A stretch of DNA of 64,000 nucleotides, taken from positions 1 to 64,000 of the forward strand of contig NZ_BJLP01000019.1 in NCBI RefSeq assembly GCF_006538705.1. Reading direction: 5' to 3'. Source of the DNA: Cellulomonas uda. Its GTDB lineage: Bacteria; Actinomycetota; Actinomycetes; Actinomycetales; Cellulomonadaceae. A model generated the notes under the pieces. That model was not told the origin of the DNA, made no database searches, and worked only from the letters and a program-made list of their open reading frames with translations. A program made the position numbers and the translations under genes. Shown in pieces: positions 7,721 through 64,000 of the stretch. Numbering within the stretch: the first letter of the stretch is position 1; every line of letters starts with the position of its first letter.

Positions 7721-8416
7721 TCAGGGGCGGGCGGCGAACCGCTCGAGGAGGTCGGCGTGACCCGAGACGATGATGATGTCGTTCTGCGAGATGCGGGTCT
7801 CGGGGGTCGCGTAGACGAACTCGGTGCCGGGCGACTTCACGCCGACCACCGTGACCCCGTACCGCTCGCGGATCTTCGACTGCGCGAGCGTGAAACCCTG
7901 CGTCTCCTTCGGCGGGCGCATCTTGACGACCGTGAAGCCGTCCTCGACCTCGATGTAGTCGAGCAGCTTGCCCGAGACGAGGTGCGCGACGCGCGAGCCC
8001 GCGTCCGCCTCGGGCAGCACCACGTGGTGCGCGCCGATGCGCTGCAGGATGCGCGCGTGCTCGTTGGAGACCGCCTTCGCCCAGATCTGGGGGATGCCGA
8101 TGTCGACGAGGTTGCCCGTGATGAGCACCGACGCCTCGAGGTAGGACCCGACGCCGACGACCGCGACCGGGAAGTCCCTTGCGCCGAGCTGCTCGAGCGC
8201 CTCGGGGTTGGCCGCGTCGGCCTCGACGAGCGCGATGCGCCCCGCCCACTGGGCCACGAGCTCGGGGCTGCGCTCGACCGCGAGCACGTCCTGCCCGAGC
8301 CGGTCCAGCGTCGCCGCGATCGCGGACCCGAACCGGCCCAGCCCGATGACGAGCACACCCGAGTCCTTCTTGGGCGTGCGCGGGGCGCCCTGCGTGCCTG
8401 CGCGTGCGTCGCGCAT
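7721..8416 (-). CDS. trkA: TrkA-type potassium uptake regulator (RCK domains)
   Basis: The 231-residue cytoplasmic regulatory subunit of a Trk/Ktr potassium transporter gates the partner channel in response to bound nucleotide. An RCK_N Rossmann fold starts with VLVIGLGRFGSA (GxGxxG at about residues 25-30) and has an acidic end of beta-2 (AVERS near 47-51). The RCK_C domain follows from about residue 145 (GFTLAQSKIRERYGVTVVGV). A single RCK pair of this size resembles KtrA/CglK more than the tandem E. coli TrkA. The ATG at 8416 lies 4 nt after the trkH stop, so the two genes form one operon. The N-terminal ~20 residues are a variable tail. Confidence 0.92.
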   Translation of the reverse strand: MRDARAGTQGAPRTPKKDSGVLVIGLGRFGSAIAATLDRLGQDVLAVERSPELVAQWAGRIALVEADAANPEALEQLGARDFPVAVVGVGSYLEASVLITGNLVDIGIPQIWAKAVSNEHARILQRIGAHHVVLPEADAGSRVAHLVSGKLLDYIEVEDGFTVVKMRPPKETQGFTLAQSKIRERYGVTVVGVKSPGTEFVYATPETRISQNDIIIVSGHADLLERFAARP

Positions 8417-8420
8417 GGTC

Positions 8421-9797
8421 TCAGCCAATGATCGGCCTCTCTTCCGGCAGCCGGATGACCCGACGACGGTTGCGCAGCGCGAGCGCGGCCGCAAGCGTCA
8501 TGGTGCCGGTCCGGCCGATGAACATCAGGACGGTGAGCACGTACTTGGCGGCGTCGGGCAGGCCCGGCGTGATGCCGGTCGACAGCCCGCACGTCGCGAA
8601 CGCGGAGATGACCTCGAACAGCACGACGTCGAGGCGCAGCCCCGTCATCGCGAGCAGCAGCAGCGAGGCGATGAGCACGAACGTCGCGGAGATGAGCGAG
8701 ACCGCGATCGCGACCTGGAGCGCGTCGCGCGGGATGCGCCGGCCGTACGCCTCGACGTCCCGGTCGCCGCGGGCCTCCGCGACGATCGCGAGCAGCATGA
8801 CCGCGAGCGTCGTCACCTTGATACCGCCGGCGGTCGACGCCGAGCCGCCACCGACGAACATGAGTGCGTCCATGAGCAGCCAGGTCGACTCGTGCATCTG
8901 GCCCACGTCGACAGTGGAGAAGCCCGCCGAGCGGGGCATGACGCCCGCGAACAGGGACGCGAGCGCGGTGCCCGACGCGTCGATGGGTGCGAACGTGCTC
9001 GGGTTCGTCCACTCGAACGCGGCGACGAGCACGGAGCCCGCGACGACGAGCGCGAGGCTCGTCGTGATCGTCAGCTTGGCGTGCAGGCTCCACCGCCGCG
9101 GCTCGCGCAGGTGCCTGGCGACGTTGAGGATCACGGGGAAGCCGAGCGACCCGATGAACACGCCGACGATGATCGGCAGCAGCACCCACCAGTCGGAGAT
9201 GAACGGCGCGAGCCCCTCGGGCGTCGGCACGAACCCGGCGTTGTTGAACGACGAGACGCCGTAGAAGATCGCGTGCCACGCGGCCGTGCCCCACGACTCG
9301 TCGTACATGTGGAAGCGGGGGAGCAGGACGAGCGCGATCGCGACCTCGAGGGTCGTCGAGGTCACGATGACGGTGCGCACGAGCGAGCCGACCTCGCCGA
9401 GCCGCGTGAACTTGGTCTCCGACGAGACGAGCAGGCGCTGCGTGAGGCCGATGCGCCGCGAGACCGCCATGCCCAGCAGCGACGCGAGCGTCATCACGCC
9501 CAGGCCGCCGATCTTGATCGCGACGAGGATGACGACGAGCCCCCACGTCGACCAGTACTCGCCGGTCGGGACCACGACGAGCCCGGTGACGGTGCTCGCG
9601 GACGTCGCGGTGAACAGGGCGTCGACGAACGGGGCGCGGTGCCCGGACGCGGTCGCCCACGGCGCGGACAGCAGCACCGTGACGAGCGCGATCACCGCGG
9701 CGAACACGCCGAGCGCGAGGCGGGCGGGCGACTGGCGCGCGGACCGGTCGACGAGCTCACGCGCGCGCCACGCGACGCCGGGGCCGCTGCGCGCCAT
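8421..9797 (-). CDS. trkH: TrkH-type potassium transporter membrane subunit
   Basis: This 458-residue protein is the pore-forming partner of TrkA and imports K+ (possibly K+/Na+). It has many membrane segments arranged as repeated M1-P-M2 units. Selectivity-filter-like turns are visible (SASTVTGLVVV, SSFNNAGFVPT and CGLSTGITPG), and the first repeats fit the TrkH/KtrB family. The start is the ATG at 9797, chosen because GGGAGGTGGG lies directly upstream. In-frame codons above it have no hydrophobic or conserved content. It is translated just ahead of trkA and faces the divergent acuC gene across a 175-bp intergenic region. Confidence 0.92.
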   Translation of the reverse strand: MARSGPGVAWRARELVDRSARQSPARLALGVFAAVIALVTVLLSAPWATASGHRAPFVDALFTATSASTVTGLVVVPTGEYWSTWGLVVILVAIKIGGLGVMTLASLLGMAVSRRIGLTQRLLVSSETKFTRLGEVGSLVRTVIVTSTTLEVAIALVLLPRFHMYDESWGTAAWHAIFYGVSSFNNAGFVPTPEGLAPFISDWWVLLPIIVGVFIGSLGFPVILNVARHLREPRRWSLHAKLTITTSLALVVAGSVLVAAFEWTNPSTFAPIDASGTALASLFAGVMPRSAGFSTVDVGQMHESTWLLMDALMFVGGGSASTAGGIKVTTLAVMLLAIVAEARGDRDVEAYGRRIPRDALQVAIAVSLISATFVLIASLLLLAMTGLRLDVVLFEVISAFATCGLSTGITPGLPDAAKYVLTVLMFIGRTGTMTLAAALALRNRRRVIRLPEERPIIG

Positions 9798-52166: not shown

Positions 52167-53174
52167 GTGACTTCGACCGCGGCCATCCCGCTGGCCGACC
52201 AGGCCCTCGCCGACCGGCTCACCGCGCGCCTCGCCCTCGTCGAGGAGGCGCTGCGTGACGCGGTCGGCAACGCCGACGCCCTCGCGGACTCGGCGTCGCG
52301 CCACCTGGTCAACGCCGGCGGGAAGCGCCTGCGCCCGCTGCTGACCCTGCTCGTCGCCGAGCTGGGTGACGGGGCGCGCCGGGAGGTCATCGACGCTGCC
52401 GTCGTCGTCGAGCTCACGCACCTCGCGACGCTCTACCACGACGACGTCATGGACTCCGCACCGCTGCGCCGCGGTGCGCCGTCCGCGCACGAGGTCTGGG
52501 GCAACTCCGTCGCGATCCTCACGGGCGACCTCCTGTTCGCCCGGGCCTCCACGACCGTCGCCGGCCTCGGCCCCGAGGCGGTGCGCATCCAGGCGCGCAC
52601 GTTCGAGCGGCTGTGCCTCGGCCAGCTCCACGAGACGGTCGGCCCGCGCGAGGGTGACGACCCGGTCGCGCACTACCTGCAGGTGCTCGCCGACAAGACC
52701 GCGTCGCTGCTCGCGACGTCCGCGCGGCTCGGCGCGATGTTCGCCGGCTGCACGCCCGAGGTCGTCTCCATCGTCATGGAGTTCGGCGAGCGCATCGGCG
52801 TCGCCTTCCAGCTCGCCGACGACGTCATCGACCTCACCTCCGACGGTGCGCTGACCGGCAAGACCCCCGGGACGGACCTGCGCGAGCGTGTCCCGACGAT
52901 GCCCGTGCTCCTGCTGCGGGCCCGCTGCGCGGGTCCCGCCGCGAGCGACGAGGACCGGGCGCTGCTCGCGCGCCTCGACGGGGACCTGTCCGACGACGCC
53001 GCGCTCGACGAGGCCGTCGCGCTGCTGCGGGCCCACGCCGTCCTCGACGAGACCCGGGACCAGGCGGTCGCGCTCGCGCACGACGCCGTGCGCGTGCTCG
53101 AGCCGCTGCCGGCCGGGCCGGTCAAGGACGCGCTCGTCTCCTTCGCCGACGCACTCGTCGACCGCGCGTCCTGA
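52167..53174 (+). CDS. Polyprenyl diphosphate synthase (trans-isoprenyl)
   Basis: This 335-residue soluble class-1 prenyl synthase has the first aspartate-rich motif YHDDVMD in a RLRPLLTLL...LATLYHDD context and the second motif FQLADDVIDL. The GGKRLRPLL block carries the isopentenyl-diphosphate-binding residues. It probably makes the long all-trans chain used by MenA: M. tuberculosis grcC1 (Rv0562) sits beside menJ in the same way. Chain length cannot be read with confidence. The GTG start is probably leaderless. Confidence 0.92.
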   Translation: MTSTAAIPLADQALADRLTARLALVEEALRDAVGNADALADSASRHLVNAGGKRLRPLLTLLVAELGDGARREVIDAAVVVELTHLATLYHDDVMDSAPLRRGAPSAHEVWGNSVAILTGDLLFARASTTVAGLGPEAVRIQARTFERLCLGQLHETVGPREGDDPVAHYLQVLADKTASLLATSARLGAMFAGCTPEVVSIVMEFGERIGVAFQLADDVIDLTSDGALTGKTPGTDLRERVPTMPVLLLRARCAGPAASDEDRALLARLDGDLSDDAALDEAVALLRAHAVLDETRDQAVALAHDAVRVLEPLPAGPVKDALVSFADALVDRAS

Positions 53175-53366: not shown

Positions 53367-55187
53367 GTGAGCGGCAAGCTGTGCGGGACGTGCGGGGCTG
53401 AGCTCGAGGCGGGGGCGATGTTCTGCGCCGAGTGTGGCGCGCGCGTCCAGGCCCCGCCCGCGCCGCCGGCGCCCGGACCCGTACCCGCTGTTATACCCGC
53501 TGTTGTACCCGCTGCCGCGCCCGCTGCCGTACCCGCTGCCGACGACCCCGTCCGGACGTCGCGCGACGTGCCCCCGAGCGCGCCCGCCGCGACCGCCGCG
53601 CCGGCTCCTGCGCCCACGACGGCCGCGACCGCGTGGGGCTCGGAGCCGGTCACCGCCGCGTCGGCCGCCGCACCGCCGAGCGGCGGTGGGCGTCGCGACG
53701 CGCGTGCGGCCGGGACGTTCCCGGTCGTGCCGGGGAGCGTTGCGCCCGTCGGGCGCCGCGTCGCCGCGTACGCGATCGACCTCGCCGCGCTCTCACTGCT
53801 CGCCGGGCTGGGCGTGGTGATCTCGCTGGCCGTGGCGGGCACCCCCGAGGCGGGAGTGCGCCCGAGCGCGGCGTCGTTCCTGCCGTCCCTGCTGGGCGGG
53901 CTCGGCGGGCTCGCGCTGTGGATCTGCGAGTCGGTCACCGGCGCGACCGTCGGTGGTGCGCTGCTGGGGATCCGGACGGTGTCGGCCGAGACCGGCCGTC
54001 CCGCGGGTCTGCTGCGCATCTTCGTCCGGCAGCTCGTCGTGGGACTCGGCTACGTCGCGTGCCTCGTCGGGGAGTGGCTCGTCGTGGCGTCGGGCGTGTT
54101 CGACAAGACGCCCGCGCAGCGGGGCTGGCACGACAAGGCCGCGGGCACGATCGTGCTGCTCGCGAACGCGACGGGCGTCGCCCGGTCCGAGGACCCCGCG
54201 CAGGCGTGGGACCGGGCCGTGGCGCGCGCGGTCGGGCCCGTGCCCCCGCCGCCGCCGTCGTCTGCGCCGGCGCCTGCTCCCGCCCCTGTTCCCGCGCCGG
54301 TCGCCCCCGCACCCGTGACCCCCGCACCCGTGACCCCCGCGCCCGTGACCGCTGCGCCCGTCACCGCTGCGCCCGTGACCGCTGCGCCCGTGACCGCTGC
54401 GCCCGTCACCACCCCGCCCGTCACCGCGCCGCCTGTCGCGGCTGCGCCCCCGGCGGAGCCGGCGGCGGACGCCGCGGCGGCGGAGCCGGAGCCCGCCGCC
54501 GCGATCGGTCTCGTGCCGCTCCCGCCGGGCGTCGGGACGGGCCGGCCCACCGAGCGCCCGCCGGCCGACGGCCTCATCACGGGCCCGCCCGCCCGCACGC
54601 AGCCCACGTCCGCCGAGCCGGCCCCGCCCGCGCCCACGTCGGGCTGGTCCGACACGCTCGCCGGTGAGGTGCGGCGCACGCCGGGCGACACCCCGCCCGC
54701 GGGCCATGACCGGGTCGAGCCCGCGGCCGCGCGCGGCGAGGACACGTCGACCGCCGCGCAGCCGATCGCGCGGGCGGCGGCGGACCACCCGCGCTGGACG
54801 GAGGAGCTCGACGACATCGAGCTCACGCGCCTGCGCACGCCCGTGACCGGTCAGCCGCCCGTGCCGCCCGGCCTGCGCCTGGTGTTCGACACGGGTGAGC
54901 GCGTCGACGTGCTGGGTGAGGGCGTCGTGGGGCGCGCGCCCCAGGGCGACGTCGAGCACGTCGTGGCGATCGACGACCCGGCGCGGTCGCTGTCGAAGAC
55001 GCACCTCGCGTTCGGCCCCGCCGAGCCCGGGACGCTGTGGGTCGTGGACCGCGGCTCGACCAACGGCACGCTCGTGGTGCGTCCCGACGGGACGGCGGCG
55101 ACCCTGCCGGCGGGCACGCGCGCGAGCGTCGGCCCGGGCTGGTCGCTGCGTCTGGGCGAGCGCACGGTGCGCATCGAGGCGCGCTGA
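53367..55187 (+). CDS. Zinc-ribbon, RDD and FHA domain membrane protein (T7SS-associated)
   Basis: This 606-residue protein has three recognisable parts. Residues 4-24 form a zinc ribbon (Cys6, Cys9, Cys20, Cys23). About 125-270 is an RDD membrane domain (VGRRVAAYAIDLAALSLLAG, GATVGGALLGIRTV, QRGWHDKAAGTIVL). About 500-600 is a C-terminal FHA domain (GEGVVGRAP, SLSKTHLAF, STNGTLVV), which normally binds phosphothreonine. A long disordered linker includes nine APVTA-type pentapeptides. A shorter paralogue at 60725 has the same order. Flanking eccC, it is probably a regulatory or scaffold component of the secretion system; no function has been shown. GAGGAGG lies 9 nt before the GTG. Confidence 0.85.
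   Translation: MSGKLCGTCGAELEAGAMFCAECGARVQAPPAPPAPGPVPAVIPAVVPAAAPAAVPAADDPVRTSRDVPPSAPAATAAPAPAPTTAATAWGSEPVTAASAAAPPSGGGRRDARAAGTFPVVPGSVAPVGRRVAAYAIDLAALSLLAGLGVVISLAVAGTPEAGVRPSAASFLPSLLGGLGGLALWICESVTGATVGGALLGIRTVSAETGRPAGLLRIFVRQLVVGLGYVACLVGEWLVVASGVFDKTPAQRGWHDKAAGTIVLLANATGVARSEDPAQAWDRAVARAVGPVPPPPPSSAPAPAPAPVPAPVAPAPVTPAPVTPAPVTAAPVTAAPVTAAPVTAAPVTTPPVTAPPVAAAPPAEPAADAAAAEPEPAAAIGLVPLPPGVGTGRPTERPPADGLITGPPARTQPTSAEPAPPAPTSGWSDTLAGEVRRTPGDTPPAGHDRVEPAAARGEDTSTAAQPIARAAADHPRWTEELDDIELTRLRTPVTGQPPVPPGLRLVFDTGERVDVLGEGVVGRAPQGDVEHVVAIDDPARSLSKTHLAFGPAEPGTLWVVDRGSTNGTLVVRPDGTAATLPAGTRASVGPGWSLRLGERTVRIEAR
54309..54443 (+). repeat. 15-bp repeat array encoding APVTA/APVTP pentapeptides
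   Basis: About nine in-frame 15-nt units (GCGCCCGTGACCGCT type) encode a Pro/Val/Thr/Ala linker between the RDD and FHA domains. Near-identity of neighbouring units suggests recent slippage. Confidence 0.85.
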
Positions 55188-55188
55188 C

Positions 55189-58100
55189 TCAGGTCGTCGA
55201 CGGCGTCCAGGCGAGCTGGACCACCTGCAGGCCCGCCTCGCGCGTGACGAGCTGGGCGCGTCCGGGCACCGACGGCACGGGCCGTGCGGCGCCGACGAGC
55301 GCACCCTCGTCGGGGCTGCCCGACATGACGATCCCGGGCGCCGCGAGGTCGCGCACGGCCTGCAGGACGGGGTCGTACAGCGAGCGTGACGCGCCACCGG
55401 TGCGTCGGGTGAGCACCAGGTGCAGCCCGACGTCGCCGGCCTGTGCGAGCAGCGGGACGAGCGACGTGAGCGGGTTCCCGGACGAGGTGGCGACGAGGTC
55501 GTAGTCGTCGACGAGGACGTACACCTCGGCACCGGTCCACCAGGAGCGGGCTCGCAGCTGGTCGGGTGTGACGTCGGGGCCGGGCAGCCGCCCGCGCAGG
55601 TACGCGGCGAGGTCCGTGAGCTCGGCGGTCGCCTGCTCGTGCGTGGTCAGGTAGCTCGTGAGGTAGGTGTCGGGGATCTCGCCCAGCAGCGCGCGGCGGA
55701 AGTCCACCGCGATGATCTGGGCCTGCTGCGGCGTGTGCAGGCGCTGGATCTCGCTCGCGACGGCGCGCAGGAACGCGGACTTGCCGGCACCCGAGTCGCC
55801 GAACGCGTACAGGTGGTGCTCGTCGCGTACGTCGACGACGACGGGGGCGAGCGCTGCCTCGTCGATGCCGAGCAGGATGCCGGGCGCCTGAGGTGCGCGC
55901 GCGCGCAGCTCGTCGAGCGTGACCTGCTCGGGCAGCAGGCGCAGCTTGGGCGGAGGAGCGCCGCGCCACGACTGCGCGACGGTCTGCACGAGGTGCTGCA
56001 CGCCGGCGCCGAGCGTGTCGGGCGACCCGTCGCCGTCGATGCGGGGCAGCGCGGTGAGCACGTGGTGCTTGGACGCGACGAGCCCGCGGCCGGGCCGCTC
56101 GCGCGGGACGGACGCCGCGACCTTGCGGTCGAGCTCGGAGTCCGTCGGGTCGCCGAGACGCAGCTCGAGCCTCGTGCCGAACAGGTCCTTGATCTGGGTG
56201 CGGAAGTCCATCCAGCGGCTCGCGGACGCGAGCACGTGGATGCCGAACGTGAGCCCGCGCCCGGCGAGCGCCTGGAGGCGCGGCTCGAGCTCGTCGAACT
56301 CCTGGCGGATCGTGGACCAGCCGTCGACGACGACGAAGACGTCCCCGTACCCGTCGTCGACCTGGCCCGCGGCGCGCCGCTGGCGGTACGTCTCGACGGA
56401 GTCGACGCCGTGCGCCCGGAAGTACCGCTCGCGCGCGTCGACGATCCCCTCGACCTCGGCGACGATCCGCCGCACGACGTCGGGCTCGGCGCGCGTGGCG
56501 ACGCCCGCGACGTGCGGGAGCCCGACGAGCGGCGTGAACGTGCCGCCGCCGAAGTCGAGCACGTACAGCTGCACCTCCAGCGGCGTGCGGGTGAGCGCGA
56601 GACCCGTCAGGACGGACCGCAGGACCGTGCTCTTGCCGGACCGCGGGCCGCCGACGACGGCGAGGTGCCCGCCCGCACCCGCGAGCGACAGCGTGAGGTT
56701 CTCGCGCCGCTGCTCGAGCGGGCGGTCGACGATGCCGAGCGGGAACGTCAGCGCGCCGGCCTCGCGCCAGCCGCGCGAGACGAGCCCGAGCTGGGGGTCG
56801 ACCGCGAGGTCCGGCATGAGCCGGTCGAACGTCTCGGGCACGACGAGCGGCGGGAGCCACACCTGGTGCGCGGCGGGGCCCTGGCCGCGCATGAGCGAGA
56901 CCGCGATGTCGAACGTGGCGCGCTTCTCGTCGTCGTCGAGGTCCGGCTCGTCGGGCTCGTCGCGACCCGCGGCGGCGGTCAGCACCGGCGCGGCGGTGAA
57001 CGACTCGAGGCGCGCACGGCCCGTGGCGACGGGGCCCGCCCCGGCGGCCGTGCGGCGCCGCGCCTTCGGCGGACCCGAGACGTAGGACGCGCGGAACTGG
57101 ATCATCGTCGTCGGGTCGGGCTTGAGGTAGCCGACGCCGGGCACGGGCGGCAGCTCGTACGCGTCGGGCACGCCGAGCACGGCGCGCGACTCGGACGCGG
57201 AGAACGTGCGCAGGCCGATCCGGTACGACAGGTGGGACTCGAGGCCGCGCAGGCGACCCTCCTCGAGGCGCTGGCTGGACAGCAGCAGGTGCATCTGCAG
57301 CGAGCGGCCGAGGCGCCCGATCGCGACGAACAGGTCGACGAACTCGGGCTTGGCGGCGAGCAGCTCGGAGAACTCGTCGGCCACGATCAGCAGCGCGGGC
57401 AGCGGCTGCAGGTCCGGCCGGTCGGTACGACGCGCCTTCTCGTAGTCCGCGACGTTCGCGAAGTTGCCCGCGGCCCGCAGCAGCTCCTGACGGCGCACCA
57501 TCTCGCCCTGCAGCGCGTCCTGCATGCGGTCGACGAGCGTGAGCTCCTCGCCGAGGTTCGTGATGATCGCCGAGACGTGCGGCATGTCCGCCATGCCGGC
57601 GAACGTCGCGCCGCCCTTGAAGTCGACGAGGACGAAGTTGAGGTCCTCGGAGGAGTGCGTGAGCGCGAGGGCGAGCACGAGGGTGCGCAGCACCTCCGAC
57701 TTGCCGGAGCCCGTCGCGCCGATGATGAGCCCGTGCGGGCCCATGCCCTGCTGCGCGGACTCCTTGATGTCGAGCGCGACGGGCTGTCCCTGCGGGGTCA
57801 GGCCGATGGGGACGCGCAGCCGGTCACGCGCGAGCCGCGGGCGCCACGCGCGCGACAGGTCGAGGTCGCGCACGTCGCCCAGGCCGAGCAGGTCGACGAG
57901 CTCGGCGGAGACCTGGCCCTCGTCGCGCTGCGGCCCGGCGTCCACGTACAGGGGGAGCAGGCGGCGAGCCGTGGCCTCCGCCTCCGGCAGCGAGAGCCGG
58001 TCGCCCTTGAGCCGTGTGGGCTCCATCCCCAGGCGCAGCACCTCGACGGGCACGCCACCGTCGGGCAGCGCCGCGCCGAGCAGGAACCGCAGCGTGTTCG

Positions 58101-59157
58101 CGTCCTCGAGCTCCTCCCAGTGCTCGGGCAGCTCGAGCACCGTGACGCCGAGCACGCCGTCGGGCGTGACGATGCCGTTGCCCACGGGGACGTGACCGCC
58201 GTCGACGACGACGAGCAGGTGGGGCACGGGCGTCGAGCCGACCGGTGCGCGGCCGAACCGCGGCCGGTCCGCGAGCCCCTCGGGCAGCAGCCCCTCGATC
58301 TCGGCGAGCGTCGTGCCGATCATCCGGGCCGCTCCGACGGCGTCGCGCTCGCGCGTCGAGTGGGCGTGCGGCAGCCACTTCACCCAGTCCCACGCGGGCA
58401 GCGCGCGCTCGCCCGCGAGGACGGCGATCTGCAGCTGGTCGGGGGAGTGGAACGTCGCGAGCTGCGCGACGACGGCGCGGGCGAGCCCGCGGGCCTCGTC
58501 CTCGGCCCCGGCGACCTCGATGCGTGCCGCGCTGCGCACGTCGACCGACAGCGGGATGTCCTGCTGCACGCGGTGCGTGACCAGGAACCGGTGCGCGGCC
58601 GAGGCCGCCACGGGGTCGAGCTGCGCGAGCGGGGGCGTCTGCGGCGCCTCGAGCTGCAGCGCGAGCTGCTGCGCGCCCGTCCCGAGCCGCGCGCGCAGGA
58701 ACTCCGGATGCTCGGGTGTGCGCTCCCACGCCCGCGAGCGCTCCTCGGCGATCGCCGGCAGCGCGCCGGGCTCGGGTGCGAACCACTGCGCCGCGCGCCG
58801 CTGCGCCCGGGCAGCCTGGCGCACCGTGCGGCGCAGGTCCGCCAGGTACGCGAGGTACTCGCGCCGCGCCCCGACGACCTGCGCCTGGTGCTGCGCGCGC
58901 TGGCGCCACCCGTTGACCGCGACGAAGCCCAGCGACGCGACCAGGAACATGCCGCCCGCGATCATGCCCTTGCCGCCCGGCTGCGACATCGAGATGAAGA
59001 CGATCGAGCCCACCGAGCCGAGCATCGGCACGAGGTTCGAGAGCACACCGCTGACGCCGTCGGACGGCTGGATCTCCGGAGGTGGCTGCATGACGACCTG
59101 ACCCGTGGGGACGGGCGGTGGGCCGGCCTGGACGCCACGGTCGGCGGTGATCGACAT
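55189..59157 (-). CDS. eccC: Type VII secretion protein EccC (three FtsK/SpoIIIE ATPase domains)
   Basis: The 1322-residue motor ATPase drives type VII secretion. Two N-terminal membrane helices (about 38-80) precede three FtsK/SpoIIIE-type domains. Walker A motifs are GATGSGKS (near 478), GGPRSGKS (near 835) and GDSGAGKS (near 1119); Walker B-like strands are LLIVADEFSEL, VFVVVDGWSTI and VYVLVDDYDLV. It is a single polypeptide, as in ESX-3/-5, rather than split into EccCa and EccCb. The ATG at 59157 is chosen because GAGGAGAG lies just upstream. The upstream in-frame extension has no conserved content. It is transcribed divergently from eccD, and its stop is 1 nt from the convergent RDD/FHA gene. 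Confidence 0.94.
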   Translation of the reverse strand: MSITADRGVQAGPPPVPTGQVVMQPPPEIQPSDGVSGVLSNLVPMLGSVGSIVFISMSQPGGKGMIAGGMFLVASLGFVAVNGWRQRAQHQAQVVGARREYLAYLADLRRTVRQAARAQRRAAQWFAPEPGALPAIAEERSRAWERTPEHPEFLRARLGTGAQQLALQLEAPQTPPLAQLDPVAASAAHRFLVTHRVQQDIPLSVDVRSAARIEVAGAEDEARGLARAVVAQLATFHSPDQLQIAVLAGERALPAWDWVKWLPHAHSTRERDAVGAARMIGTTLAEIEGLLPEGLADRPRFGRAPVGSTPVPHLLVVVDGGHVPVGNGIVTPDGVLGVTVLELPEHWEELEDANTLRFLLGAALPDGGVPVEVLRLGMEPTRLKGDRLSLPEAEATARRLLPLYVDAGPQRDEGQVSAELVDLLGLGDVRDLDLSRAWRPRLARDRLRVPIGLTPQGQPVALDIKESAQQGMGPHGLIIGATGSGKSEVLRTLVLALALTHSSEDLNFVLVDFKGGATFAGMADMPHVSAIITNLGEELTLVDRMQDALQGEMVRRQELLRAAGNFANVADYEKARRTDRPDLQPLPALLIVADEFSELLAAKPEFVDLFVAIGRLGRSLQMHLLLSSQRLEEGRLRGLESHLSYRIGLRTFSASESRAVLGVPDAYELPPVPGVGYLKPDPTTMIQFRASYVSGPPKARRRTAAGAGPVATGRARLESFTAAPVLTAAAGRDEPDEPDLDDDEKRATFDIAVSLMRGQGPAAHQVWLPPLVVPETFDRLMPDLAVDPQLGLVSRGWREAGALTFPLGIVDRPLEQRRENLTLSLAGAGGHLAVVGGPRSGKSTVLRSVLTGLALTRTPLEVQLYVLDFGGGTFTPLVGLPHVAGVATRAEPDVVRRIVAEVEGIVDARERYFRAHGVDSVETYRQRRAAGQVDDGYGDVFVVVDGWSTIRQEFDELEPRLQALAGRGLTFGIHVLASASRWMDFRTQIKDLFGTRLELRLGDPTDSELDRKVAASVPRERPGRGLVASKHHVLTALPRIDGDGSPDTLGAGVQHLVQTVAQSWRGAPPPKLRLLPEQVTLDELRARAPQAPGILLGIDEAALAPVVVDVRDEHHLYAFGDSGAGKSAFLRAVASEIQRLHTPQQAQIIAVDFRRALLGEIPDTYLTSYLTTHEQATAELTDLAAYLRGRLPGPDVTPDQLRARSWWTGAEVYVLVDDYDLVATSSGNPLTSLVPLLAQAGDVGLHLVLTRRTGGASRSLYDPVLQAVRDLAAPGIVMSGSPDEGALVGAARPVPSVPGRAQLVTREAGLQVVQLAWTPSTT

Positions 59158-59244
59158 CGCTCTCCTCGCTGCCCGGAGCGTGCGCCGGGGTCGAGCATGC
59201 ACGGGACCACGCAACGGTACCCGCACCGGGGCGATCCGGACCCG

Positions 59245-59250
59245 TAGCAT
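59245..59250 (+). promoter_or_regulatory. Candidate -10 box of eccD in the eccC/eccD divergent region
   Basis: TAGCAT fits TAnnnT and lies 74 nt upstream of the eccD GTG. The 167-bp region between the divergent starts must hold promoters for both arms of the secretion locus. Confidence 0.4.
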
Positions 59251-59324
59251 GTGGGCGGCCACCCGACCGCCGTCGCAGGTGGCGGGCCCGCACGCGCAGG
59301 ACGGACACGGACGAGGAGGTGGTC

Positions 59325-60728
59325 GTGGCGGCACCCGGCTCGGCCACCGACGCCCGCCCGCAGTCGCACGTGCGGCTCGTCGTCGCCGTGGGCGCCGAGC
59401 AGCGCCATGTCGCGCTGCGCCGTGACGTCGTGCTCGGTGACGCGCTGCGCGCCGCGCTCGTCCCGATCGACGACCCCGCGACCCTCGTCCTCGACTCCGC
59501 CGGGCAGCGGCTCGACGTGCGCGCCGCGGTCGGCCGGCAGGTCGCCGACGGTGGCGCGCTGCACGTCGTGCGCCCCGCGCCCCGGCCGCGTCGCCACCGG
59601 CCGGTCGACCCGGAGCTGCTCGCCCGCCGCCCCCGCCCGCAGGCCGGTCTGCTCGCGCTCGCGGGCGCGATCGGTGCGGTCCTGCTGCTCACCGCGATGC
59701 TCGGCCCCGCCCCGGACCTGCCCGCGTCGGCCTCGACCGGCGTCGCCCTCGCGCTGGCGCTCGTCGCGCTGGCCGTCGCCACGGCGGGGCGCACCGGACG
59801 GGGGACCGCGCCCGTGGCGTCCGTCGCCGCGACCCTCGCCGCACCCACGCTCGCCGCCGCCGCCGGCGCGTGGACCGTCCTGCCCGACGACGCACCGGCG
59901 CGACGGCTCGCCGTCGTGGTCGCGCTGGCGTGCGCGACCACCGTGGGCGGCGTCCGCACCGTCGTCACCCGGCGCCTGCGCGACGGCGAGGACGTCGCGG
60001 TCGTCGTGCTCGGCGGGCTGACCGTCGCCGCCGCTGCCCAGTCCGCGACCCTCCTGCTCGACCTGCCGGTGCAGGCCGGGGCCGCGCTGCTGGTCGGCCT
60101 CGCACCGCTCGTGCTGCGCATCGCGCCGCGCCTCGCGCTCGCGATCCCCGACGAGCAGCTCGTCGACGTCTCGCAGGTCGCGCGCACCGCCGAGTCCGTG
60201 CGCGCCCCGCGGCCGCGCGCGCTCGGCCGCGTGAGCCAGAGGCTCGTCGCCCGCACCGTCGAGGGGGCCGAGCGGCGCGTCATCACCGCCACCGCCCTCG
60301 CGTGCGTCGTCGCCGTCGTGCTGCTGCCCGGCGTCGTCGCGGCGGCGCAGCGCGCGGACGGTCTCGCGGCCGTGCAGCGCTGGGGTGCGTACACGCTCGT
60401 CGCGTGCGTCCTGCTCGCGTTCGTGCTCGTCCCGCGCAGCTCGCGCGACACGGCCGGGCGGTGGCTGCCCCGGCTCGCGGCCGGGGCGCTGCTCGTCGAG
60501 ACCGCGCTCGCGGTGCCGCTCGCGTGGCGGATCCCCGTCGCCGTGGGCGCGCTCGCGCTCTGTGCGGTCGTGGCGGTGGTCGGGACCGCGCTCGCGCGCG
60601 GCTGGCGGTCCGTGGTCGCGTCGCGGCTGGCGGACATGATGGAGGGGCTCGCGGTGGCCGTGGCGCTGCCGGCGGCGGTCGTCGCGTCCGGGCTCGTCGA
60701 GGTGCTGCGGAGGACGGTGGGCTCATGA
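59325..60728 (+). CDS. eccD: Type VII secretion integral membrane protein EccD
   Basis: This 467-residue protein has an N-terminal ubiquitin-like domain (about 10-85, VRLVVAVGAEQRHVALRRDV and LVLDSAGQRLDVRAAVG) followed by eleven hydrophobic helices. That is the EccD architecture, which forms the membrane channel barrel of ESX systems. The GTG at 59325 follows AGGAGG by 5 nt; GTG at 59319 overlaps that site and is less likely. The stop overlaps the next gene (ATGA), so eccD and the second Zn-ribbon/RDD/FHA gene are co-translated. Confidence 0.88.
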   Translation: MAAPGSATDARPQSHVRLVVAVGAEQRHVALRRDVVLGDALRAALVPIDDPATLVLDSAGQRLDVRAAVGRQVADGGALHVVRPAPRPRRHRPVDPELLARRPRPQAGLLALAGAIGAVLLLTAMLGPAPDLPASASTGVALALALVALAVATAGRTGRGTAPVASVAATLAAPTLAAAAGAWTVLPDDAPARRLAVVVALACATTVGGVRTVVTRRLRDGEDVAVVVLGGLTVAAAAQSATLLLDLPVQAGAALLVGLAPLVLRIAPRLALAIPDEQLVDVSQVARTAESVRAPRPRALGRVSQRLVARTVEGAERRVITATALACVVAVVLLPGVVAAAQRADGLAAVQRWGAYTLVACVLLAFVLVPRSSRDTAGRWLPRLAAGALLVETALAVPLAWRIPVAVGALALCAVVAVVGTALARGWRSVVASRLADMMEGLAVAVALPAAVVASGLVEVLRRTVGS

Positions 60729-61996
60729 GCGAGCAGACCTGCGCGTCGTGCGGACGCGCGTTGCGGGAGGGCGCCCGGTTCTGCACGGGGTGCGGTGCGC
60801 CCGCGGCACCCATGATCGTCGTCGAGGCGCAGCCGCCGGTGACGCGGCGACGCTCGTCGGGCCGCGCGCGGGGGGCGGCGCGCACGTCACACCCGCCCGT
60901 GGCGACGCCGGCCGCGGCCGGTCCCCGCGTCGTCGGCGCCCCCGCCCTCGCGGACGGCCTCGGGGCCGCGTTCGACGGTGTCCGGACCGTCGGCGTCGGG
61001 GCGCGTCTCGGCGCGTTCGCGATCGACACGCTCGTGGTCCTCGGCGTCGCGGGCGCCGTGCTCGGCGCGACGCAGCGGCCCGTGCTCGCGGCTCTCGTCG
61101 CGCTCGAGCTCGCCGTCGGGCTCGTCGTCTGGGAGGCCCGGACCGGGCGGACCGTGGGGAACCTCGTGCTCGGCCTGCGCGCGGCGCGCGTCGAGACGCC
61201 GTACGCGCCCGGCCTCGGCCGTGCGGTGCGCCGGGCCCTCGTCGTCGGGGCCGGGCACCTCGTCGGCGGGGTCGGGCAGTGGGTCGTCGTCGGGTCCGTC
61301 GCGGGGGACCGCTCCGCGCTGCGGCAGGGCTGGCACGACCGCGCGGGCCGCGCGGTGGTCGTCGACGTCCGCGGACCGCGCGCCGGCGGCGCGGGGGTCG
61401 GGGCACCCGCCACGCCCGGCCTCGTCACCGTCGGCTCGGCAGCGCCCGTCTCCCGCCCGGCACCCGGTGCGCCGACAGCCGTGCCGACCGGTGTGCCCAC
61501 CGATGCGCCGACGGGCGTGGCGGCCGGCGCGCCGGCCGGTGTGCCGCCGACCGCCTCGGCGCCCGGCCCGGTGCCCGCCGCCGGTCCGCGTGCGACCCAC
61601 GGTGGCGCGCACCCCGTGGTGCCCCACCCGTCGGCACCCCCGACGGCGCCTGTGCGGCCGCGCACGTTCGTGCTGACGCTCGACACGGGCGAGGCGATGA
61701 GCGTGAGCGGCCCGGGCGTCATCGGCCGCGCGCCGCGCCCGCGGGACGGCGAGCGGTGCGACCACGTGGTCACGGTCGACGACCCGCAGCGGTCCCTGTC
61801 GCGCACGCACGCGCGGTTCGGCATCGACGCGCGGGGGTTCTGGGTCGCGGACGCAGGGTCCGGCAACGGCACCGTCGTCGTGCTGCCCTCCGGGCAGTCG
61901 GTGGTCGTCGCACCGGAGCGGCCGACCCCCGTCCCGAGCGGCTCCACGGTGCGCATCGGCGACCGGACCGTGCTGGTGGAGCAGCTCCCGGGCTGA
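60725..61996 (+). CDS. Zinc-ribbon, RDD and FHA domain membrane protein, second paralogue
   Basis: This 423-residue protein repeats the architecture of the one at 53367. The zinc ribbon has identical cysteine spacing (Cys6, Cys9, Cys20, Cys23). The RDD domain lies at about 95-220 (VGARLGAFAIDTLVVLG, RTVGNLVLGLRAARV, RQGWHDRAGRAVVV). A Pro/Ala/Gly linker follows, then a C-terminal FHA domain at about 315-420 (GPGVIGRAPRP, SLSRTHARFG, GSGNGTVVV). It is translationally coupled to eccD, which ties it to the secretion system. The duplication around eccC/eccD suggests the two may form a heteromer or act at different steps; this is inference. Confidence 0.86.
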   Translation: MSEQTCASCGRALREGARFCTGCGAPAAPMIVVEAQPPVTRRRSSGRARGAARTSHPPVATPAAAGPRVVGAPALADGLGAAFDGVRTVGVGARLGAFAIDTLVVLGVAGAVLGATQRPVLAALVALELAVGLVVWEARTGRTVGNLVLGLRAARVETPYAPGLGRAVRRALVVGAGHLVGGVGQWVVVGSVAGDRSALRQGWHDRAGRAVVVDVRGPRAGGAGVGAPATPGLVTVGSAAPVSRPAPGAPTAVPTGVPTDAPTGVAAGAPAGVPPTASAPGPVPAAGPRATHGGAHPVVPHPSAPPTAPVRPRTFVLTLDTGEAMSVSGPGVIGRAPRPRDGERCDHVVTVDDPQRSLSRTHARFGIDARGFWVADAGSGNGTVVVLPSGQSVVVAPERPTPVPSGSTVRIGDRTVLVEQLPG

Positions 61997-62005
61997 CCGA
62001 CGACG

Positions 62006-62036
62006 ACGGCCCCCGCACCGGTGGTGCAGGGGCCGT
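62006..62036. terminator. Bidirectional hairpin between the second RDD/FHA gene and the PPE-like gene
   Basis: ACGGCCCC (62006-62013) pairs with GGGGCCGT (62029-62036), and GCACC with GGTGC inside, around a GGT loop and one C/A mismatch. It lies between converging genes. Confidence 0.75.
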
Positions 62037-62050
62037 CCGTCAGCGGTTCG

Positions 62051-63427
62051 TCACCAGGTCTCGTCGTCCGCGGGGGCGTCGACGGTCACGTTCGGTGCGT
62101 CCTCGCGCGAGCCGCGCGCGAGTCCCGCGGCGCGCGCGGTCGTCGTCGGCTCGTCCTCGTCGAGCTCGGGTGCCACGTAGCCCAGCGAGCCCGCGCGACG
62201 CTTGCGCTTCGAGCTCCCGGCGGCTCCGCCGCCACCCGCTGCGCCGACCATGCCGCCCGCCGACCCGCCGCGACCGCCCGCGCCTGCGGCGCCGAGCGCG
62301 CCGCGGCCCGCGGCGCCCGCTCCGGCAGGGCCACCGCCCAGGACGGCCGCTCCGCCGGCTCCGCCCGGCGCACCGCCGAGCGCACCACCCAGGGCACCTG
62401 GGAGTGCGCCACCGCCGAGCCGCGCCGCACCCATCGCGCCGAGCGCGGTCCCGCCGACCACGGCGCCACCGGCGAGGGCACCGCCGGCCAGCCCGCCGGA
62501 GCCCGGACCGCCGATCGACCCGCCGCCCGCTCCAGGGCCGGTGGTCGAGCCGTCGCCGCCGGCGAACCCGCCACCGAGGACCGGCGACCCGACGCCAGGC
62601 CGGGAGGGCGTCCCGGTGCCGGGCAGGTCGTCGCCGTGCGTGTCGCCGGGGTCGCCGATGACGGGGCCGGGCGTGACCGGGCCGGGGTCGACAGGGGGCG
62701 GGGGCTGCCGGGGCGGCCACTCCGTCTGAGGCGGCTCGTACGGGGGCTCGTACGGCGGCACGGGCGGCAGGACCGGGGGCTGCTCGCCGGGGTCGCCGGG
62801 CACGGGCCCGACGACCCCGAACCGCGGCGGGCGCTCGGGGGCCGGGCCGGGGCTCGACGACGGCGGGTCGTACGGCGTCCGTGGCGTCCTCGGGCCCCCG
62901 GGGTCGGTGGGCCCGGGGCTCGTCGGGTCCTCGCGGTCCTGGTCCGCGAGGCCCCGGACCTGGTCCGTGAGGTCGTGGAGGCGTGAGTTCACCGTTGCCA
63001 GAGCGGCCTCTGCCTCGCGCTCGCGCTCCAGGGCGCGGGCGTTCTCGATGTAGGGGATGCCGGTCGAGGCACCGTTCGCCTCGAGCTCGCGGCGCTCGGC
63101 GTAGGTGAGCCGCCCGAGCGGCAGGGCCCGGTACTCGCGCTGTGCGGTCTCGACCGTGCTCGCCGCCTCTTTGACGACGGTCGCGATCGCCGCCAACGCG
63201 TCGACCTTCGCGAGCATCGACCTGGCGGTCTCGGCGATGCTCGCCTGCGCGGCGTCCCCGGACATGCCGTCGAGCCCGAGGTCGCTCGCCAGACGGCGCA
63301 GCTCGGTGCTGATCTCCTGCAGCGGCTCACCGAGCGCCTCGAGCCTCTCGGCGTCGGCGATCGCCGCGTCCGGGTTCGCGTCGAGCGCCCTCTGGAGCTC
63401 GGCGGAAGACTTCTCGGCCATCGTCAC
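62051..63427 (-). CDS. Putative T7SS substrate: helical N-domain with Pro/Gly-rich C-region (PPE/EspB-like)
   Basis: The 458-residue product has an N-terminal helical domain (about 1-150) rich in Ala, Glu and Leu. It contains LGLDGMSGDAAQASIAETAR, resembling the WXG/PPE-type turn but with Met in place of Trp, and a second helical pair around YAERRELEANGA. Residues ~165-260 are Pro-rich, ~265-400 are Gly/Ala-rich with GGALPGAL-like runs, then comes a basic SSKRKRR and an acidic end (LDEDEPTT, closing DDETW). No signal peptide or membrane helix is present. It overlaps the mycosin gene by GTGA. This layout (ESX-type helical head plus a long disordered Gly-rich tail) resembles EspB and PPE proteins; secretion is inferred. 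Confidence 0.7.
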   Translation of the reverse strand: MTMAEKSSAELQRALDANPDAAIADAERLEALGEPLQEISTELRRLASDLGLDGMSGDAAQASIAETARSMLAKVDALAAIATVVKEAASTVETAQREYRALPLGRLTYAERRELEANGASTGIPYIENARALEREREAEAALATVNSRLHDLTDQVRGLADQDREDPTSPGPTDPGGPRTPRTPYDPPSSSPGPAPERPPRFGVVGPVPGDPGEQPPVLPPVPPYEPPYEPPQTEWPPRQPPPPVDPGPVTPGPVIGDPGDTHGDDLPGTGTPSRPGVGSPVLGGGFAGGDGSTTGPGAGGGSIGGPGSGGLAGGALAGGAVVGGTALGAMGAARLGGGALPGALGGALGGAPGGAGGAAVLGGGPAGAGAAGRGALGAAGAGGRGGSAGGMVGAAGGGGAAGSSKRKRRAGSLGYVAPELDEDEPTTTARAAGLARGSREDAPNVTVDAPADDETW

Positions 63428-64000
63428 TTGCCCCCTTCAGTTGGGTCCGAGCCGTACGCCTGAGTGGCACCTCCGGTGCCCGGCCGGCTGACGCCGGTCG
63501 CGGTCGCGCCACGCCGGCGGAAGACGAGCACCGCGACAGCGGCGACGCCCACGGCCAGGAGTCCGCCACCGGCCGCGAGGAGCGCGGGTGCGGTCGAACC
63601 CGCGTCGTGGGCGACTGGCGTGGCGGGTGCAGGCGTCGCGGTCGCGTCTGCGGTGGGCGACGGCAGCGGGGTGGTTGCGCCCGCGCTGGGTGTCTCACGC
63701 CGCGGGGAGTCACGCAGCGTCGGGTCGTCCAGGAGCGAGAGGTCCTGCACCTGTTCATAGGTGGGGATGCTGTCGGGGTCGTGGTCGAGCAGAGGGTTCT
63801 CGTCCGGGTAGGTGGTCGGATCGTGCTCGAGCATGTGCCGGACGTTGACGACGCCGTACCCGGTGAGCGGGTCGTGGTAGAGCTCGTGGTCCTCGCCGTC
63901 GGTGTTGCGGATGAGGGTCTGGATGATCTGGTTGCCGGTCGCCTCGGGGTAAGCGGACCAGACCAGTGCGAGCGCCCCCGCGGTGAACGCGGTCGCGGCC
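63424..64000 (-). CDS. mycP: Mycosin-like S8 subtilase, 3' end only (type VII secretion protease)
   Basis: The 3' part of a gene that starts beyond the right edge; about 192 codons are visible. The first visible residues, AATAFTAGALALVWSAYP, are the helix that follows the catalytic Ser of subtilases, and LTGYGVVNV closes the protease domain. A ~75-residue Thr/Pro-rich linker, a C-terminal membrane helix (LLAAGGGLLAVGVAAVAVLV) and a short basic tail follow. That anchor is typical of membrane mycosins (MycP), and eccC/eccD nearby supports the role. The catalytic Asp, His and Ser lie outside the window and could not be checked. It precedes the PPE-like gene in one operon. Confidence 0.82.
   Translation of the reverse strand, partial: AATAFTAGALALVWSAYPEATGNQIIQTLIRNTDGEDHELYHDPLTGYGVVNVRHMLEHDPTTYPDENPLLDHDPDSIPTYEQVQDLSLLDDPTLRDSPRRETPSAGATTPLPSPTADATATPAPATPVAHDAGSTAPALLAAGGGLLAVGVAAVAVLVFRRRGATATGVSRPGTGGATQAYGSDPTEGGK

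Follow-up and report, generated by a model that had tools for sequence, protein, structure and literature searches.

The end of a 64,000-nucleotide stretch of the Cellulomonas uda genome carries genes of a type VII secretion system (T7SS), whose eccC and eccD are flanked by two similarly built proteins, here named RF1 and RF2, and the question is whether these proteins belong to the secretion machine, singly or as a pair. This stretch, analysed as a whole and referred to below as the window (C19:1-64000), is part of a genome of 3,563,272 bases over 103 contigs. From left to right, the locus consists of nuo genes, a polyprenyl diphosphate synthase (PPS) gene, RF1 (plus strand), EccC (minus), EccD1 (plus), RF2 (plus), a protein of 458 amino acids (aa; minus) and a mycosin (minus), and it is a genuine T7SSa locus (EccC, EccD, probable mycosin) flanked by RF1 and RF2. 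The sequence-only reading of this DNA ascribed to both flanking proteins the order zinc ribbon, RDD domain, linker, FHA domain, which was confirmed by Pfam and, for the FHA domain of RF1, by a profile of our own. As to RF2, its status as a T7SS-linked, conserved companion of EccD is well supported; furthermore, we consider it fairly probable that RF2 serves a divergent EccD as an accessory subunit and reads phosphothreonine through its FHA domain, in a T7SSa that has two EccD genes and in which no EccE could be found. RDD, FHA and T7SS genes were found by all-frame profile searches, and a GC-based gene caller, which fails on Pro/Ala-rich genes, was kept for the neighbours.

The zinc ribbon, RDD and FHA domains of RF2 (423 aa, 60725..61996, plus strand) all score above the Pfam cut-off (RDD, PF06271: 38.8 bits, cut-off 24.1). 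The stop of eccD and the start of RF2 overlap by ATGA at 60725-60728, which makes 60725, not 60728, the most likely start and bears out the coupling of the two genes claimed earlier. The phosphothreonine-binding signature of FHA domains comprises GR, SxxH and NG; in RF2, G-R, S-x-T-H and N-G are invariant in all 10 aligned proteins. Two solved structures matched the C-terminal, FHA-bearing part of RF2 marginally (E 0.009 and 0.010). The upstream partner, EccD1 (59319..60728, plus strand), is transcribed away from eccC and is a divergent EccD, recognised by PF19053 (35 bits, cut-off 30) and matching none of the NCBIfam EccD models at E<=0.001. In the literature pairing T7SS with RDD or FHA, no description of RF2 was found (most subscription journals and supplements lie outside this search), and within these bounds the suggestion that such an architecture has not been described for ESX loci holds.

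The linkage of RF2 to EccD extends over many genomes. An RF2 profile run against 396 genomes of the order gave 30 loci, read with flanks of 1.5 kb, i.e., direct neighbours only; the initial filter scored part of the candidates (4 per genome in this search, 12 in another genome search). EccD lies directly upstream in all of the 20 best loci (225 to 490 bits), 13 of them in genomes outside the profile, and in none of the next 10 (207 to 224.5 bits), nine of which have PP2C within the flanks. In 13 of the 20 best loci RF2 has a potential start codon that overlaps the stop of eccD; in the other seven it lies within 45 nucleotides. In L044 and L050 the gene order differs, yet RF2 still follows eccD1, and eccD1, RF2 and eccC all have the same direction.

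A census starting from EccC covered 149 genomes of the order and gave 39 places above the cut-off in 32 genomes, the surroundings of all of which were read (four of the loci are shorter than 15 kb owing to contig ends). RDD and FHA are encoded in one open reading frame at 15 of the 39 loci, while G133 (L113) has both in the expected position but split over two frames; FHA only was found in L126, and RDD only in L112 and L128. Seven of the 15 (L045, L120, L121, L122, L124, L125, and L127) represent a second, more divergent locus type, in which the RDD match is mostly weak or shortened. A further set, the named EccC loci, comprises the best 80 of at least 574 confirmed places; these are the nearest relatives and do not sample the diversity evenly, and 16 of them span less than 20 kb. 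RDD-FHA genes are present in seven of these (two Cellulomonas, one of which is G060 itself, three Microbacterium, Miniimonas, and Leifsonia), a Gulosibacter locus has FHA only, and neither domain was found in the flanks of the remaining 72. The sequence-only reading had named a wide occurrence of the fused architecture without T7SS genes as what would speak against a role in secretion; such an occurrence does exist for the architecture as a whole, but the top RF2-like loci do not show it. Two side observations concern other neighbours of EccD: in L145 and L163 (Microbacterium) an RDD protein with two FHA matches adjoins it, and in a family without RF2 the adjoining gene encodes another kind of membrane-type protein, to which no Pfam model matches (L105:7157-7900, L106:13283-14146).

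The role that we propose for RF2 is as follows. RF2 would be made together with EccD1 and probably bound to it, with the RDD helices as its anchor next to EccD1. The long Pro/Ala linker would give a cytoplasmic FHA domain the reach to recognise phosphothreonine in some component or substrate of the T7SS, whose assembly or activity could thereby be tuned by Ser/Thr kinases and PP2C phosphatases. RF2 would represent an EccD1-tied branch of an RDD-FHA family. The other members of this family, RF1 among them, often lie beside PP2C genes, and for some the setting is a T7SSd/PFNA-like cluster that includes a kinase. The gene content, the overlap of eccD and RF2, their conserved adjacency, the FHA signature and the T7SS-independent synteny of RF1 are direct observations. 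The membership of RF2 in the complex, the cytoplasmic side of its FHA domain, the phospho-dependence and the direction of recruitment are all predictions of this model.

Several observations weigh against the proposed role. The number of hydrophobic segments in RF2, about three, leaves the cytoplasmic position of its FHA domain a prediction, and the zinc ribbon was not found in several of its relatives. Below the top 30 profile loci, some eccD-linked members score under non-linked ones or are split (G372, G336, G133, G124); hence, the division into EccD-linked and PP2C-linked proteins is valid for those 30 loci only. Many two-eccD loci (in Nocardioides and others) are devoid of RDD-FHA genes, which are therefore not essential to this locus type. 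The kinase of a T7SSd-like cluster (L049, see below) had no match at E<=1e-12 in the T7SS stretches of the genome itself (L006, L039) or of G380, as judged by a single query with no positive control. Finally, in a tree of 36 RDD-FHA domain pairs the T7SS-linked ones do not form one clade: 13 rows (11 of the 12 type A rows and two Microbacterium rows) are on one side of a weakly supported branch (75/84), and L116 (family f4) together with seven rows of the divergent type falls among the PP2C/T7SSd-like ones. The family may have entered T7SS loci on at least two occasions; alternatively, the tree may lack the strength to decide.

As an aside, five Thr columns of EccC are common to RF2-bearing loci, for instance the Thr in EKRATFDIA, present in 15 of 15 sequences with RF2 vs. 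4 of 23 without; since the two sets differ by lineage, these columns are a weak lead. No such column emerged from EccD1.

The apparent lack of EccE deserves separate consideration. PF11203 has no match at E<=0.001 in the C. uda genome. A lack of EccA or EccE is not novel by itself, as ESX-4 is devoid of EccA and some of its variants of EccE as well (PMC4791881, PMC11217815). Two EccD genes are present in 23 of the 80 named loci and one in 52, with none in the DNA covered for the other five. EccE is present in none of the 23 two-eccD loci vs. 27 of the 31 one-eccD loci that have eccB in range, the latter figure leaning upward because the EccE profile was built partly from genomes of the one-eccD set; the 31 exclude 21 one-eccD loci without eccB in range, none of which has EccE. 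The Pfam search provides an independent check. In 24 named genomes, PF11203 is above the cut-off in none of the 13 genomes of Cellulomonas, Nocardioides, Knoellia, Microbacterium and their kin (two have matches under it) and in nine of the 11 genomes of Micromonospora, Actinomadura, Kitasatospora, Actinosynnema, Rhodococcoides, Amycolatopsis, and Plantactinospora; the two exceptions are both Actinomadura. Lineage alone could account for the pattern of EccE and two EccD genes. Within the order of C. uda the pattern is less strict: EccE occurs in three of the 39 EccC loci, and most one-EccD loci are also without it.

In this context RF2 might be a structural stand-in for EccE, a membrane-anchored protein whose cytoplasmic domain stabilises the EccD pair without reading any phosphopeptide. 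This would agree with the coupling of RF2 to eccD1, with the failure to find EccE in RF2-bearing loci, and with the ESX-3 protomer, which contains two EccD copies in different conformations, both contacted by EccE (PMC6986878). We nevertheless regard this alternative as unlikely, considering that invariant phosphothreonine-binding residues are unexpected in a purely structural domain, and that 19 of the 23 two-eccD named loci (flanks covered) have neither EccE nor RDD-FHA, so that the loss of EccE needs no RF2. The latter count likewise weakens the idea of RF2 as a required substitute for EccE. A different scenario, which we put forward tentatively, is that in a subclass of T7SSa the two EccD genes encode an obligate heterodimer replacing the EccE-held bent/extended homodimer of ESX-3 and making EccE dispensable, and that Micrococcales-type lineages then gained RF2 and, with it, gating by Thr phosphorylation. 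If the reading of RF2 and its locus proposed above is true, the two-EccD, EccE-less systems would be a natural test of EccE function.

RF2 could also be a bystander, a signalling gene that happens to reside in the eccD operon and plays no role in secretion. RDD-FHA proteins are common outside T7SSa, and many two-eccD loci do without RF2, as such an explanation would have it; on the other hand, a bystander would hardly keep its place after eccD1 in 20 of 20 best loci and under differing gene order, with a potential overlapping start in 13 of the 20, and we find this explanation quite improbable. The reading of RF2 as an EccD1 subunit is the one we retain.

The case of RF1 (606 aa, 53367..55187, plus strand) is different. 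Its RDD domain (PF06271, 55.4 bits, cut-off 24.1) and Zn_Ribbon_1 are above the Pfam cut-offs; the C-terminus has no match to Pfam FHA at E<=0.001, although it scores 101 bits with the FHA profile made from RF2 and its relatives and carries GR, SxxH and NG. The assignment relies on Pfam, this profile, synteny and the tree. The usual neighbour of RF1 is PPS (52167..53174, plus strand, PF00348 198 bits), located downstream of the nuo genes; its orthologue, 80% identical, adjoins the RF1 relatives in L052 (G130) and L054 (G060), where no EccC was found within the 20 kb read. Altogether, RF1-type genes occur at eight nuo-PPS loci (L052, L054, L260, L262, L264, L266, L268, and L272) without EccC, EccD or EccB nearby; most of the loci around RF1 relatives were picked for RDD-FHA matches, which accounts for their having RF1-type genes but has no bearing on the neighbours of these. 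The whole G130 genome has no EccC above the cut-off (best match 362.8 bits vs. 509.15). In L052, L262 and L264 the genes follow as PPS, RF1, PP2C, transporter, and oxidoreductase, with no T7SS gene found between them; L260, L266 and L268 have the order PPS, PP2C, RF1, and in L054 an MMPL gene lies between the RF1 relative and PP2C. L272 (G407) has the gene order of L052, except that a lone mycosin-like gene (7825-9144, PF00082 80 bits) is located between RF1 and PP2C, with no other T7SS gene found; it is possibly a relic of a lost T7SS island.

T7SS-bearing versions of the RF1 site are found in C. uda itself, G380, G372, G316 and G336 (in the latter on two contigs), and T7SS-free versions also exist. 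Five loci of another family (f13: L046, L047, L113, L114, and L274) have no RDD-FHA gene between PPS and EccC, and in G287 (L257), from another genus of the family of C. uda, an RDD-FHA gene is at the opposite end, between mycosin 2 and the transporter. RF1, thus, belongs to a nuo-PPS-PP2C block and is probably not a T7SS component; it seems to flank the locus only because the T7SS occupies the junction between RF1 and PP2C. In the tree RF1 groups with its L052 and L054 relatives (support 100/99), and forcing RF1 and RF2 into a clade costs 111 log units. The origin of the two as sister copies is rejected by the approximately unbiased (AU) test (p-AU 1.5e-80), and the twin-paralogue bracket of the sequence-only reading falls with it and with the synteny; of the T7SS roles envisaged there, that of RF2 as an EccD companion survived (20 of 20 best loci), that of RF1 did not (eight T7SS-free loci, G130). 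That RF1 and RF2 work together for the T7SS as a pair, one on either side of it, is very improbable: RF1-type genes do precede EccC in G380, G372 and G316 too, but the T7SS-free nuo-PPS loci, G130, the five f13 loci and the rejected clade all argue against it. This shows how gene-neighbourhood readings can mislead, as of two look-alike flanking genes RF2 is likely a component and RF1 scenery.

As to the other genes of the locus, EccC (EccCa+EccCb, the T7SSa ATPase; 55189..59157, minus strand) matches TIGR03924 (927 bits) and TIGR03925 (844 bits), both above the cut-off, and its gene meets RF1 3' end to 3' end. In an anti-phage library EccC matched mad8 (182 bits), SspH, HerA and others, presumably because of its own FtsK-type ATPase domains; nothing in this library matched RF1, RF2 or the 458-aa protein. 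The latter (62051..63427, minus strand) has a Gly/Pro-rich C-terminus and no family match; its homologue occupies the corresponding place in L043, where it shows a below-cut-off match to PPE, and we regard the protein as a candidate T7SS substrate. Mycosin 1 (63424..64000, minus strand) is cut by the window end and complete in L006, our own stretch; it matches TIGR03921 (E 2e-36, 125.8 bits) under the cut-off of 278.75, and its windowed part is slightly under the PF00082 cut-off. A 143-aa protein (minus strand) lies just past the window edge, and contig C19 ends 1286 bases beyond the window.

The rest of the system is likely to be found on contig C74 of the same genome, the end of which carries EccB (PF05108 204.5 bits), a second mycosin and a second EccD; the gene order of the relatives suggests that C74 continues C19. 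The second EccD (L039:9854-11473) and PP2C (L039:6619-7350) on C74 are each split across frames, being damaged or misread. In G060 (same genus; L043 and L137 are one genome) the order is unbroken: EccC, the 458-aa homologue, mycosin, the 143-aa homologue, two WXG100 genes, EccD1, RF2, EccD2, EccB, and mycosin 2; both WXG100 and both domains of EccD2 (YukD and EccD) are above the cut-off. In C. uda, WXG100 gave a single below-cut-off match, on contig C41, and the likely place of the pair is the gap between C19 and C74. G380 (L255 and L256, adjoining on one contig) has NuoM, NuoN, PPS, RF1, EccC, EccD1, RF2, mycosin, EccB, mycosin 2, PP2C, an EamA-type transporter, and a pyridine-nucleotide oxidoreductase (the latter two family names rest on matches of the L052 copies). 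On C74, mycosin 2 adjoins PP2C, transporter and oxidoreductase genes like those of G380, which fits a G380-type arrangement across the gap.

Of the known systems, the closest are ESX-4-like T7SSa, which share EccC, EccD, EccB, a probable mycosin and, in the relatives, the WXG100 pair, and some of which likewise have no EccE (PMC4791881, PMC11217815); the locus described here differs in having a pair of EccD genes and a pair of mycosins, and in the coupling of RF2 to EccD1. From the ESX-1/2/3/5 type it is distinguished by EccE not being found in its genome (PF11203). RDD-FHA genes have other surroundings as well: in L049:1-19901 such a gene is accompanied by genes for a protein kinase, a PP2C, MoxR-type and transglutaminase proteins and another FHA protein, as well as by that of an EssC-like ATPase with an FHA domain. 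This ATPase scores below the EccC cut-offs, and searches of L049 for EccD, EccB and mycosin gave no match. Judged by gene content, this cluster resembles T7SSd (PMC11217815) and the bifidobacterial PFNA cluster (PMC8430577), which look like versions of one thing; RDD is not mentioned in the main text of either article. Contig C23 of C. uda (L040, L041) also has RDD-FHA with kinase, PP2C and further FHA genes, named partly by eye. The surroundings of the RDD-FHA family at large are thus those of phospho-signalling. Unlike the T7SSd ATPase, the EccC of the window has no Pfam FHA match and exceeds the EccC cut-offs, and the L049 kinase is unmatched at the locus (in the search described above).

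T7SSa coupling proteins are stated to have no FHA domains (PMC9600267). The FHA domains of EssC in T7SSb have no phosphothreonine site, their partner being the pseudokinase EssB, whereas the ATPases of T7SSd and T7SSe keep the site (PMC11217815). With EssC/YukB and EssB/YukC of T7SSb (PMC9600267) RF2 would share an FHA domain on the cytoplasmic side of the machine; in T7SSb, however, these domains are fused to the ATPase and devoid of the site, while RF2 is a protein of its own and its FHA domain retains the site. Other T7SS types are reported to have kinases and FHA components encoded as separate proteins (PMC11217815). Among them, TseJ and TsfJ of T7SSe and T7SSf are, like RF2, separate FHA proteins at a T7SS locus, TsfJ being predicted to have two transmembrane helices; as described in that source, they are set apart from RF2 by an N-terminal DUF6382 instead of zinc ribbon and RDD and by their occurrence in Bacillota. 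If the proposed role of RF2 is true, T7SSa gains a separate phosphothreonine reader, comparable to those that seem to be present in some of the other T7SS types.

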